The notes beneath the pieces are model-generated. The model did not search any database. It was given only the letters and a program-made list of their open reading frames with translations, and was not told the DNA's origin. 64,000 bases of DNA from Propionicicella superfundia DSM 22317 (GTDB taxonomy: Bacteria > Actinomycetota > Actinomycetes > Propionibacteriales > Propionibacteriaceae), in the NCBI RefSeq assembly GCF_000423465.1, contig NZ_KE384020.1:960757-1024756 (forward strand). The letters are read 5' to 3'. Below, one piece after another: positions 54,370 through 63,854 of this stretch. The position numbers were made by a program, and so were the translations under genes. The number at the start of each line of letters is the position of its first letter. The stretch's first letter is position 1.

Positions 54370-55257
54370 CTAGGTGGTCGACGCCGCGAAGATCGATCCC
54401 ACGGCCCGGGCCAGCAGCGCGTCGAACTCGTCGTCGGCCATGTCCACCCGCAACCCCTCGGTGAGCGCACGCGAGAAGCTCGCGATCAGGCCGTGATTTC
54501 GCGCGAGACGTTCGTTCGCCTCCGCCCGGGTGTAACCGCCCGAGAGCGCCACCACGCGCAGCACCTGGGGGTGCTCGATGAGCGGCTTGTAGAAGTCGGC
54601 GACGTCGGGGATCGTGAGCTTGAACATGATCGGCCCGTCGACGGTGCCGGCGAGCAGCCGCCCGCCGATCTCGTCCAACAGGATCCGCTCGCATTCTCCC
54701 TTGTCAGGAGCCTTGATATCCACCTCGGGCTCCAGGATGGGAACCAGGCCCGCCGCGGCGATCCGCCGGCCGAGCTCGAACTGCTGCGCCACGTTCGCCG
54801 CGATCCCCGCAGGATCCGCGGACTGGACGACCGACCGCATCTTCGTGCCGAAGACATGGGCGGCCTTGGCTCGGGCGACGAGTTCGTCGAGGTTGTCGAT
54901 GGGCTTCATCAGGCGAACGCCCCGGTCCGCCTCGGCGAGGCCCTTGTCCACTTTCAGGAACGGGACGACATGCTTGGTTCCCCACAGGTAGTCCGCGGCG
55001 GGCACGCCGGCGAACGTCCGGTCCATCGTCTTCTCGAACAGGATCGCACCGAGGATCTGTGCGCCGGCGAACGACGGGCTGGTCACGATGCGCTCGCGCA
55101 TGGCGTGCACCAGCGCGAACATCTCGTCGTCGTTCGCATAGGCGTCCTCGCCGATGCCGTACAGCTTCAGGGCCTTGGGTGTGCTGCCGCCGCTCTGGTC
55201 CAGGGCGGCGATGAATCCCCGGCCGTTCGCCATGTGCTCCAGTTGCTGGCTGAACAT
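54370..55257 (-). CDS. fda: Class I fructose-bisphosphate aldolase (Fda type)
   Basis: A protein of 295 residues from the ATG at 55257, with AGGAGG upstream. The family N-terminus GRGFIAALDQSGGSTPKALKLYGI and the Schiff-base region GPIMFKLTIPDVADFYKPL match the short class I aldolases of Staphylococcus and actinobacteria (296 residues). The end AVGSIFAASTT is also typical. It splits fructose 1,6-bisphosphate or related ketose phosphates to DHAP plus an aldehyde. It is separated from the GntR gene by 138 bases and could be transcribed with it. Confidence 0.93.
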   Translation of the reverse strand: MFSQQLEHMANGRGFIAALDQSGGSTPKALKLYGIGEDAYANDDEMFALVHAMRERIVTSPSFAGAQILGAILFEKTMDRTFAGVPAADYLWGTKHVVPFLKVDKGLAEADRGVRLMKPIDNLDELVARAKAAHVFGTKMRSVVQSADPAGIAANVAQQFELGRRIAAAGLVPILEPEVDIKAPDKGECERILLDEIGGRLLAGTVDGPIMFKLTIPDVADFYKPLIEHPQVLRVVALSGGYTRAEANERLARNHGLIASFSRALTEGLRVDMADDEFDALLARAVGSIFAASTT

Positions 55258-55395
55258 TGTCCGACCTCCTGGCAGAGCCGACACCCCTGTCGGCTCTGTC
55301 CTCAACGGTACGCCTCGGCACCGTTCCGCGTTCCGTAACAGGATGTCCGTCGCCCACCGGCCCGGAGGGTGAACCGTCTCCTGCGAGCGAGAGCC

Positions 55396-56196
55396 TCAGT
55401 TGGGGGCCGCGGTCGCACGGACCGCGACGGGCGCCCCCACCGAACCGTCGGATTCCAGTTCGACATCGAATCGGCTGCGGTCGCCCCGGTGGAACGCGAC
55501 GAAGGTCTCGATCGGGACGTCCGCCGTGTCCATGAGGACGCTGCTCAGCCGCAGGACGGGATCGCTGGGCTCGATCCCGAGGTGACGGGCGGTCGACTCC
55601 TCGGCGGGGGTCGCCTCGATCGATCGCCGGACGCGCCCGAACACCAGTCCATAGCGCTCACGCAGCAGCGCGTACAGGGACTGCTCGGCGAAGTCCTCCT
55701 TCTCGAGCCCCGGCACCAGCGACGACGGCAGCCAGGTGGTGGTGTGCGACCAGGGCTCCCCGTCGATGCTGCGCACGCGTTCGAGAAGGACGACCGGCGC
55801 CCGCTCGGGCAGGCTCAGCAGACCTGCCACACGGGAGTCGGCGGGAACCACCTCGCACCGGACGACGCGGCTGGTGACCCTGGAGCCGCGTCGCCGCGCA
55901 TCATCGGCCAGACCGCCGATCCAGCCCGCCAGCCCCTCCGACACCTTCTCTCGGGCGAGGTAGGTGCCCTTGCCGCGCTGACGTGCGACCAGCCCCTCGG
56001 TCTCCAGCTCGGCCATCGCCTGCCGCACGACGCTGCGTGACAGCCCGAAGTGCTCGGCGAGCTCGTGATCTCCGGGAAGCCGGTCACCGGCCTTCAGCCG
56101 CTGATCCTCCACGGACTCGATGAGGATCTGCTTGAGCTGCGCATAGTAGGGCAGGAGCGTCTTGCGGTCGATTGGCCGGGTGCGATCGAGGTCCAC
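55396..56196 (-). CDS. GntR-family (UTRA domain) transcription regulator
   Basis: A protein of 266 residues from GTG 56196; TACTCT six bases upstream suggests leaderless mRNA. The winged helix reads LKAGDRLPGDHELAEHFGLSRSVVRQAMAELETEGLVARQRGKGTYL, the FadR/HutC type. The C-terminal UTRA domain (about 90-250) binds small effectors, often sugar phosphates or amines. It is divergent from the deoC-like operon and is the likely local regulator of the whole 54-64 kb locus. Confidence 0.92.
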   Translation of the reverse strand: MDLDRTRPIDRKTLLPYYAQLKQILIESVEDQRLKAGDRLPGDHELAEHFGLSRSVVRQAMAELETEGLVARQRGKGTYLAREKVSEGLAGWIGGLADDARRRGSRVTSRVVRCEVVPADSRVAGLLSLPERAPVVLLERVRSIDGEPWSHTTTWLPSSLVPGLEKEDFAEQSLYALLRERYGLVFGRVRRSIEATPAEESTARHLGIEPSDPVLRLSSVLMDTADVPIETFVAFHRGDRSRFDVELESDGSVGAPVAVRATAAPN

Positions 56197-56224
56197 GCGG
56201 CGAGAGTAGTCCCTTCGGAACCGC

Positions 56225-56252
56225 TTGACACCACGGCATGTACGGTTATCCT
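56225..56252 (+). promoter_or_regulatory. Promoter of the deoC-dapA-FGGY-SDR operon
   Basis: TTGACA (56225-56230), a 16-base spacer and TATCCT (56247-56252). It leaves a leader of about 40 bases to the ATG at 56298, which contains GAGGAG. Confidence 0.7.
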
Positions 56253-62665: not shown

Positions 62666-62744
62666 CACGCCGGCCGGGCCCGCCGACCGGCGGCTCACCC
62701 GTCCCGGCAGCCGTCCGCAATCCGATTGGAAGACAAGGAGAGAC

Positions 62745-63428
62745 ATGATCACATCCGAGTTCGCCGGTCTGGTCGACCACGCCGTGCTCGCTCCCGACGT
62801 GACGAACGAAGGGGTGCGCGCCGCGTACCGCTTCACCGCCGAGGCGGGCTGTGGCTCGCTGGTCGTCAACGGCAGCAACGTCAAGTTCGCCTCCATCCTC
62901 GCTCGCGGCACCGGCGTGAGGGTCGGCGCGGTCGTCGGCGGGTTCCCCCTGGGCCGGGTGCCGACCTCCGTCAAGGCGTTCGAGGCGGCGGAGGCCGTCC
63001 GGTTCGGCGCCGACGAGCTCACCGTGATGATGAACATCGGGGCGTTCCTCGAGTGCAGTCCCGACTACCTGCTCAAGGAGGTCGGCGACGCTGTGCGGAT
63101 CGCCGACGGCCGGACGGTGAAGGTGACCCTCGAGACGGGATACCTGACCGACCAGCAGAAGCTCCGCGCTGCGCTCATCTGCGCGGACGCCGGGGCGGGA
63201 TTCGTCGTCACGTCCACCGGATTCGGGCCAACGGCCGCGACGCCGCAGGACGTCGCGCTCCTGCGGGACGGACTGCCTGCCGAGGTCGAGGTGGAGGCCG
63301 CCGGGGACATCCGCACCTGGGCCGAGGCGAAGGCTCTGCTGGATGCCGGCGCCGCCCGCCTCACGACCCCCTCCGCGGCTGAGCTGCTCGCCGACGTCGC
63401 CGCCACGACGGGACCCGACGCCTCCTGA
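62745..63428 (+). CDS. DeoC-fold protein without the aldolase active site
   Basis: A protein of 227 residues, clearly related to the first DeoC-like enzyme of this operon (LVDHAVLAPDVTNEG, GAVVGGFPLGRVPTSVKAFEAAEAV). The residues needed for catalysis are changed: the Asp position is Thr93 (ELTVMMNIG), the Schiff-base Lys is Val155 (GFVVTSTGFG) and the second Lys is Glu184 (VEAAGDIRT). The fold and the phosphate-binding TSTGFG loop remain. It may bind a sugar phosphate as a sensor or assemble with the active DeoC, or have a new activity. AAGGAGA precedes the ATG. Confidence 0.85.
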   Translation: MITSEFAGLVDHAVLAPDVTNEGVRAAYRFTAEAGCGSLVVNGSNVKFASILARGTGVRVGAVVGGFPLGRVPTSVKAFEAAEAVRFGADELTVMMNIGAFLECSPDYLLKEVGDAVRIADGRTVKVTLETGYLTDQQKLRAALICADAGAGFVVTSTGFGPTAATPQDVALLRDGLPAEVEVEAAGDIRTWAEAKALLDAGAARLTTPSAAELLADVAATTGPDAS

Positions 63429-63500
63429 GCCCCGGATCGTTCCGACCCGTCGGGCCCCGGAGGCGAAGCCCATGACCACCAGACCAGAAAGGACAATCCC

Positions 63501-63854
63501 GTGCCCTGGATCCATCTGAGCACATCACGGAAGCTGACGCCGCAGGCGAAGGCCGAGCTGGCCGACGAGATCGGCTATCTCGTCGAGATCATCGCAGGCA
63601 AGTTCCACCGGAAGACGATGGTGCGCATCGACGACGGGTGTGACATCTACCGCGGCGGGGAACTCGTGCCCTGCGCGTTCATGGAGACCCGCATCATGGT
63701 CCCGAACGACTGGGACCAGCAGGTCGACTACGTCGACAAGCTGTACGACCTGTTCGAGAAGAAGCTCGATCTGGCCCCGACCGAGGTGTATTTCAACATG
63801 GTCGAAGTGCCGAGCTGGGGATCGCGCGGCAGTCTCCACAAAGCCGGTCAATAG
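63501..63854 (+). CDS. Tautomerase-superfamily protein (MIF/4-oxalocrotonate tautomerase-like)
   Basis: A protein of 117 residues from the GTG at 63501, with GAAAGGA upstream. The residue after the initiator is proline (PWIHLSTSRKLT), the catalytic Pro1 of the superfamily exposed when the initiator Met is removed. The length is that of a single MIF-like monomer of two beta-alpha-beta units. It could catalyse keto-enol tautomerisation of a ketose phosphate or 2-oxo acid in the pathway. No paralogue lies nearby. Confidence 0.8.
   Translation: MPWIHLSTSRKLTPQAKAELADEIGYLVEIIAGKFHRKTMVRIDDGCDIYRGGELVPCAFMETRIMVPNDWDQQVDYVDKLYDLFEKKLDLAPTEVYFNMVEVPSWGSRGSLHKAGQ

Follow-up and report, generated by a model that had tools for sequence, protein, structure and literature searches.

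What does the operon at the end of contig NZ_KE384020.1 of Propionicicella superfundia DSM 22317 do? The question arises from a 64,000-nt stretch of that contig (hereafter the window), towards the end of which lie eight plus-strand genes and a divergent gntR, a unit that spans positions 55396..63854 from gntR to a tautomerase-like gene. The contig ends at the last base of the window, 146 bases past this final gene. The unit combines an FGGY carbohydrate kinase with two proteins of the deoxyribose-phosphate aldolase (DERA, or DeoC) family, a DapA-family lyase and several proteins of the short-chain dehydrogenase/reductase (SDR) fold, and two further genomes of the Propionibacteriaceae (loci L009 and L010) carry the same nine genes in this order, at 48-84% identity. 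In all three genomes, DeoC2, SDRb and SDRc lack residues on which catalysis in their families depends. Our preferred reading, held tentatively and rated at slightly less than an even chance, is that the operon serves the kinase-first catabolism of a sugar or polyol and that DeoC2, SDRb and SDRc are partner subunits of its working enzymes. The features of the locus, by position in the window, are:

54370-55257, minus strand: class I fructose-bisphosphate (FBP) aldolase (NF003784, 453 bits against a cut-off of 392)
55396..56196, minus strand: GntR/HutC-type regulator with GntR and UTRA domains, divergent from the operon (Pfam GntR 1.9e-17, UTRA 7.8e-39)
56243..56264, plus strand: candidate operator CGGTTATCCTTACAACCAGACA, kept between gntR and deoC1 in the window, L009 and L010
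56298..56984, plus strand: DeoC1, DERA-type aldolase with intact catalytic residues (TIGR00126, 234 bits)
56974..57885, plus strand: DapA-family Schiff-base lyase with the altered motif G-[FL]-A-S-E (PF00701, 2.3e-42)
58002..59543, plus strand: FGGY carbohydrate kinase (FGGY_N and FGGY_C) with a subfamily-specific Lys82
59658..61175, plus strand: SDR-SDR fusion (two adh_short stretches), YxxxK in both domains
61168..61950, plus strand: SDRb, SDR fold with Met at the active-site Lys (YAAAM in the window copy)
61973..62665, plus strand: SDRc, SDR fold with Leu/Phe at the active-site Tyr and an altered glycine motif (LGFAK in the window copy)
62745..63428, plus strand: DeoC2, DERA fold without the Schiff-base lysine (V155; TIGR00126, 165 bits)
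63501..63854, plus strand: divergent MIF-superfamily protein, predicted to be tautomerase-like, with Pro after the start Met (sub-threshold MIF match and predicted fold)

All ten genes are open reading frames at these coordinates, and Pfam and NCBIfam scans bear out the families that a first-pass annotation had named from the sequence, the tautomerase-like protein by the weaker MIF evidence given below. The tight plus-strand run that it described also holds, with spacings of -11 to +168 bases in the window, L009 and L010, and such short gaps together with the preserved order in three genomes argue that the run is not a chance array. All nine genes of the unit are in frame in 3/3 genomes. Identities of the L009 and L010 proteins to those of the window are 69-71% for DeoC1, 76-78% for the DapA-like protein, 78-79% for the kinase, 62-63% for the fusion, 48-56% for SDRb, 57-62% for SDRc, 60-64% for DeoC2, 82-84% for the tautomerase-like protein and 72% for GntR. 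The FBP aldolase, which the annotation had counted as part of the locus, does not adjoin the unit in L009 or L010 and so falls outside it. There, the operon is flanked by a gene for aminoimidazole ribonucleotide (AIR) carboxylase on one side and a LytR-CpsA-Psr gene on the other. Since the LytR-CpsA-Psr gene, on the same strand and 293 (L009) and 131 (L010) bases past the tautomerase gene, is unrelated to the operon, the operon probably ends with the tautomerase gene.

The catalytic roles of the residues compared here are those known for the DERA and SDR families. DeoC1 is a DERA by score (TIGR00126, cut-off 117.3 bits), and its Schiff-base lysine (K161) and two other DERA catalytic positions are kept in 5/5 aligned homologues. 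DeoC2 also scores over that cut-off, and its predicted model is confident (predicted local distance difference test, pLDDT, of 92.5) and superposes on a solved DERA at a TM-score of 0.92. At the position of the Schiff-base lysine, DeoC2 has Val in the window, Glu in L009 and Val in L010 (3/3 without lysine); the other two DERA catalytic positions are altered in the window copy and retained in L009 and L010. The fusion carries the YxxxK motif and the glycine-rich cofactor motif of classical SDRs in both halves, with YxxxK in 13/14 close homologues for the N half and 14/14 for the C half (the window copy included, and apparently L009 and L010 as well), and MGG or LGG instead of TGG in most rows of the N half. 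SDRb reads YAAAM, YSAAM and YSAAM in the window, L009 and L010 (YxxxM, 3/3) and retains the cofactor motif. SDRc reads LGFAK, FGLAK and FGLAK (3/3), with the lysine retained and the glycine motif altered. By these motifs, the fusion is the only SDR of the full operon with intact active sites. The initial picture of three working aldolases and of oxidation by every SDR is therefore not supported, as DeoC2 is without its Schiff-base lysine, SDRb without the catalytic lysine and SDRc without the catalytic tyrosine in 3/3 genomes.

These altered proteins are nevertheless under selection. Ratios of nonsynonymous to synonymous substitution rates (dN/dS), computed for the single pair L009 and L010, are 0.08 for the tautomerase-like protein, 0.13 for GntR, 0.15 for the kinase, 0.20 for DeoC1 and 0.22 for the DapA-like protein, followed by SDRc (0.28), the fusion (0.29), DeoC2 (0.32) and SDRb (0.35). 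Given open frames in 3/3 genomes and dN/dS of 0.28-0.35, DeoC2, SDRb and SDRc are under purifying selection, weaker than on most core genes and similar to that on the intact fusion.

The DapA-like protein scores 123.7 bits with TIGR00674, under the cut-off of 206.15 for 4-hydroxy-tetrahydrodipicolinate synthase (DapA), and retains the Schiff-base lysine and tyrosine positions. In the DapA family, a GTTGE motif holds the carboxylate of pyruvate. The motif is G-[FL]-A-S-E in 5/5 homologues of the DapA-like protein and GTTGE in the aligned DapA chains of the PDB, so a 2-oxo-acid substrate cannot be assumed and the substrate may be of another kind. For the tautomerase-like protein there is no Pfam or NCBIfam match at 1e-3. 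Weak MIF matches occur in 13/13 homologues (17.4 bits for the window copy, under the Pfam cut-off of 22), Pro follows the start Met in 13/13 aligned sequences, and the predicted model (mean pLDDT 82.5) matches solved MIF structures with a best E of 1.2e-8. On its modelled beta-alpha-beta fold and N-terminal Pro, the product of 63501..63854 is a divergent member of the MIF superfamily, for which tautomerase activity is a prediction. A protein search that relies on shared words returned 12 homologues at 75-86% identity and missed a 42% relative in locus L012.

The kinase lies under the cut-off of all 10 NCBIfam families that it matched. Its best score is to xylulokinase (TIGR01312, 278.8 bits against a cut-off of 380.25), and against LsrK (NF008187) it reaches 194.2 bits where the cut-off is 528. 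Lys82 is present in the first 59 of 82 kinase rows by score (down to 36% identity), a subfamily boundary that was set after the column had been inspected; in the remaining 23 rows the position is occupied by Gln (16), Thr (6) or Asn (1), and the aligned residue in xylulokinase is Gln. From this alignment we infer that Lys82 may touch the substrate.

How might these parts work together? The FGGY kinase would act first and phosphorylate the sugar or polyol, after which the SDR-SDR fusion could oxidise one or two carbinols and the MIF-type tautomerase could shift the resulting carbonyl. DeoC1 and the DapA-like lyase, which both retain the Schiff-base lysine, would then split the product into a triose phosphate plus a small aldehyde or ketone. 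In this scheme the fusion would take up SDRb and SDRc as further subunits of mixed tetramers, and the role of DeoC2 would be to associate with DeoC1 or to bind a ligand. The genes present, their preserved order, the lost residues, the selection on them and the 22-bp block are observed; the class of substrate, the sequence of reactions, the pairing of subunits and the repression are inferred. There is a precedent for the SDR part in the BbsCD protein of anaerobic toluene degradation, described as an SDR heterotetramer with inactive pseudoenzyme subunits (doi 10.1111/febs.16216, cited in PMC10818641). As in that description, working and catalytically impaired SDR paralogues are encoded side by side here. 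The pathway differs, the working partner is here a two-domain fusion, an impaired aldolase is present in addition, and the complex is proposed from the genes. A heterotetramer of the BbsCD type would thus be an analogy drawn from gene adjacency and residue losses.

The regulator is likewise conserved. GntR holds the same place in L009 and L010, and its GTG start was fixed by orthologues (the frame itself opens at 56265). The gap between gntR and deoC1 carries a conserved 22-bp block, CGG-N-TATCCTTACAACCAGACA, in the window, L009 and L010, through which GntR may repress the operon. The block occurs once per genome in 3/3 genomes at up to 3 mismatches (a reversed control gave 0), and no inverted repeat was found in the promoter region. 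Its single occurrence indicates that no second operon or transporter has this exact site. The first-pass annotation saw no transporter in the window, which was wrong as worded: a phosphotransferase system (PTS) EIIC/IIB protein (15094-16614), a FecCD permease (33120-34133) and a PHO4 phosphate transporter (50350-51807) are present, none adjoining the unit. The nearest, the phosphate transporter, lies ~3.6 kb beyond gntR. At L010, an ATP-binding cassette (ABC) permease (1410-2270) lies ~5 kb off, beyond a glycoside hydrolase family 1 (GH1) gene and the AIR carboxylase gene.

Both the full operon and a smaller version of it are rare in the sampled genomes. The two genomes that carry L009 and L010 also have the smaller version, at L012 and L028; it consists of the kinase, the DapA-like protein, one DeoC, a canonical SDR and a SorC-type regulator, with the tautomerase after the SDR in both. 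In Ornatilinea (Chloroflexota), locus L011 comprises SorC, DeoC, DapA, SDR and kinase genes, and no tautomerase match was found in the stretch examined around it. The SorC-family domain PF04198 is present in the L011 and L012 regulators, and the L012 and L028 regulators share 87% identity. A gene for a damage-control-phosphatase-like protein lies just ahead of the smaller operon at L012 (5503-6405, PF01937) and at L028 (9300-10202, 78% identical).

The tautomerase occurs in 3/198 genomes of the family sample. Among the matches shown, with at most three candidates scored per genome, the kinase was found in 1/396 phylum genomes at E <= 1e-110 and in 1/396 genomes of the Chloroflexota class at E <= 1e-130, in each case a genome already known. 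Eubacterium maltosivorans and Lachnospiraceae have relatives of the kinase at 61% identity. In plasmid records, kinase matches reach at most 34.4% identity among the 15 listed of 298 records (all under 60%), and there is no DapA match at 1e-30. Five further copies are hinted at in metagenomes: contigs of size 8605 and 33596 recur in the fusion, tautomerase and kinase searches, one of 24560 is common to the fusion and tautomerase searches, and those of 10942 and 4507 are common to the fusion and kinase searches. This suggests that the genes are linked likewise in those five, equal size being a proxy for one contig and no proof of it.

Several points weigh against catabolism of an imported compound by a complex with partner subunits. 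No transporter adjoins the operon among the neighbours scanned, and no second copy of the 22-bp block, nor any transporter by that route, was found in the three genomes at up to 3 mismatches, which leaves uptake unexplained. Because L009 and L010 come from a single genus, the residue losses are documented in two lineages, and the selection estimates come from that one pair. The smaller operons manage without DeoC2, SDRb and SDRc. Lys82 and the G-[FL]-A-S-E motif hint at conflicting answers as to whether the substrate is acidic. A recent tandem duplication of the SDRs is not supported either, because SDRb, SDRc and the two halves of the fusion form separate long branches, far apart. Finally, DeoC2 may still perform chemistry that needs no Schiff base, since the L009 and L010 copies keep two other DERA catalytic residues.

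The last point leads to the alternative that fares best, although we consider it unlikely: the core enzymes alone run the catabolism, while SDRb, SDRc and DeoC2 carry out other chemistry (for example as an epimerase, a hydratase or a ligand-binding protein) and are not partner subunits. The intact, confidently predicted DeoC2 barrel with two of the three DERA catalytic residues in L009 and L010, the cofactor motif of SDRb and the lysine of SDRc would all fit such roles. DeoC2 matches 39 PDB sequences, among them a Kemp eliminase designed on this scaffold, which shows that the fold can accommodate a different reaction. However, the others are named aldolases, and no natural relative with another assigned chemistry appeared in this search, which covered DeoC2 only.

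Could the unit instead act in housekeeping or repair, salvaging or detoxifying a phosphorylated carbonyl compound that arises inside the cell and is damaged or unwanted? The absence of a transporter among the adjoining genes scanned and of a second 22-bp block in the three genomes would suit this explanation, as would the phosphatase-like gene just upstream of the smaller operon at L012 and L028. But by eye the surroundings of the operon at L012 and L028 look syntenic, and the phosphatase gene may thus be a mere bystander; a kinase as first step with a dedicated GntR or SorC regulator is usual for the catabolism of imported compounds. We regard repair as improbable.

It is more improbable still that SDRb, SDRc and DeoC2 are decaying genes without a role. 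Their dN/dS is above that of most core genes, but the fusion, whose active sites are intact, shows a similar ratio, and the three genes are in frame in 3/3 genomes at ratios that indicate constraint, with order and close spacing preserved.

Does the operon match a known system? The autoinducer-2 (AI-2) processing system Lsr comprises an FGGY kinase, a small isomerase, an aldolase-fold enzyme and a SorC-family regulator. Here too there is an FGGY kinase, a small isomerase-like protein and an aldolase-fold enzyme, with a SorC-family regulator in the smaller operon, and the three best PDB matches of the kinase include LsrK. Yet the likeness drawn in the first-pass annotation holds for pathway logic and not for membership, and an AI-2-like signal-processing system can hardly be what this is: the kinase is far below the LsrK cut-off (194 against 528 bits), DERA and DapA-like proteins are present, a MIF-type protein stands where LsrG would be, and a search confined to the unit found no LsrG-type or Lsr transporter gene among the ten genes. 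Deoxyribose and deoxynucleoside catabolism shares DeoC1, a DERA by score and by catalytic residues, but no deoxyribokinase, phosphopentomutase or nucleoside phosphorylase is among the ten genes, and a second, lysine-less DeoC, a DapA-like protein, SDRs and a tautomerase are found in addition. Pentulose and polyol operons of the xylulokinase type resemble the unit in that the kinase scores best to xylulokinase and sits with SDRs, whereas here it is under the cut-off, has Lys82 in place of the xylulokinase Gln and is accompanied by aldolases.

In the open-access literature, we found no pathway with this gene set and no paper joining deoxyribose-phosphate aldolase, FGGY and catabolism; the main text of one paper that mentions FGGY (PMC3245297) contains neither 'DeoC' nor 'deoxyribose'. 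The idea of a conserved kinase-plus-aldolase unit that matches no pathway in the papers searched is thus supported, the set being kept in two relatives. The annotation had named rare co-occurrence elsewhere as what would speak against its proposal; on this count the proposal was not refuted, as the genes do co-occur, though in few genomes.

The pairing of kinase and aldolase extends well beyond the window. The genome has 16 DeoC (TIGR00126) matches, 14 of them over the cut-off. One sequence accounts for three of them, each at a contig end (C9:1-716, C16:1-716 and the end of C13) and identical over 716 and 419 bases; it is a repeat that the assembly leaves unresolved, and at least 14 matches are therefore distinct. 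A sample of 36 relatives contains 32 genomes with a single DeoC and 4 without any. Outside that sample, the two genomes that share the unit have 6 (G183) and 5 (G185), another (G001) has 2 and a Chloroflexota genome (G198) has 3. Among 198 genomes sampled across the phylum, at E <= 1e-25, the DeoC count is 14 in this genome and no higher than 4 in any other.

The genome has 21 FGGY genes, and nine of the 16 DeoC matches are found no more than 2 kb from one of them, where uniform placement predicts 0.56; nine were reached in 0 of 20000 trials. The pairs other than that of the window operon, which has the most genes, are at loci L040-L046 (contigs C1, C2, C3, C12, C13 and C16). Since the eight DeoC-adjoining kinases are spread over several distant parts of the kinase tree (some on long branches, with unsure placement), the pairing does not reflect one recent duplication. 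An SDR, aldo-keto reductase or iron-dependent alcohol dehydrogenase (iron-ADH) gene is near 7/8 of these kinases and a SorC or GntR regulator near 6/8; at the eighth pair, L040, neither an oxidoreductase nor a SorC/GntR regulator was recognised.

At its broadest, the proposal is that the operon encodes a novel catabolic pathway whose complex relies on pseudoenzymes, the working SDR fusion and the working DERA each being paired with dead paralogues from the operon, and that it is one of at least eight FGGY-DERA cassettes that form a general solution of this genome for rare sugars and polyols. We think this broader proposal doubtful as a whole. If the operon works as proposed, carbohydrate catabolism in bacteria would gain a kinase-first route not described before, and a single small bacterial operon would be seen to include three conserved pseudoenzymes from two unrelated folds. 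The FGGY-DeoC pairing also cautions against calling every DeoC a deoxyribose-phosphate aldolase, as nine of the 16 matches are near FGGY genes and two are without the catalytic lysine.

The second of these two, besides DeoC2, is a DeoC-family match at C1:918500-919096, which has Val at the Schiff-base lysine and lies ~5 kb from an FGGY gene; the lysine is missing from no other of the 16 matches (the C13 copy is partial and covers the position). At L045 (4712-10247, on C3), an iron-ADH, a SorC regulator, a DeoC and an aldo-keto reductase are encoded with a kinase that has a TSMREG stretch like that of LsrK by eye. Within the window itself, a second FGGY locus (40481-47662) encodes a YhfZ-type regulator, an oxidase linked to flavin adenine dinucleotide (FAD), a glycerophosphate-oxidase-like FAD protein, an iron-ADH family protein and an FGGY kinase.

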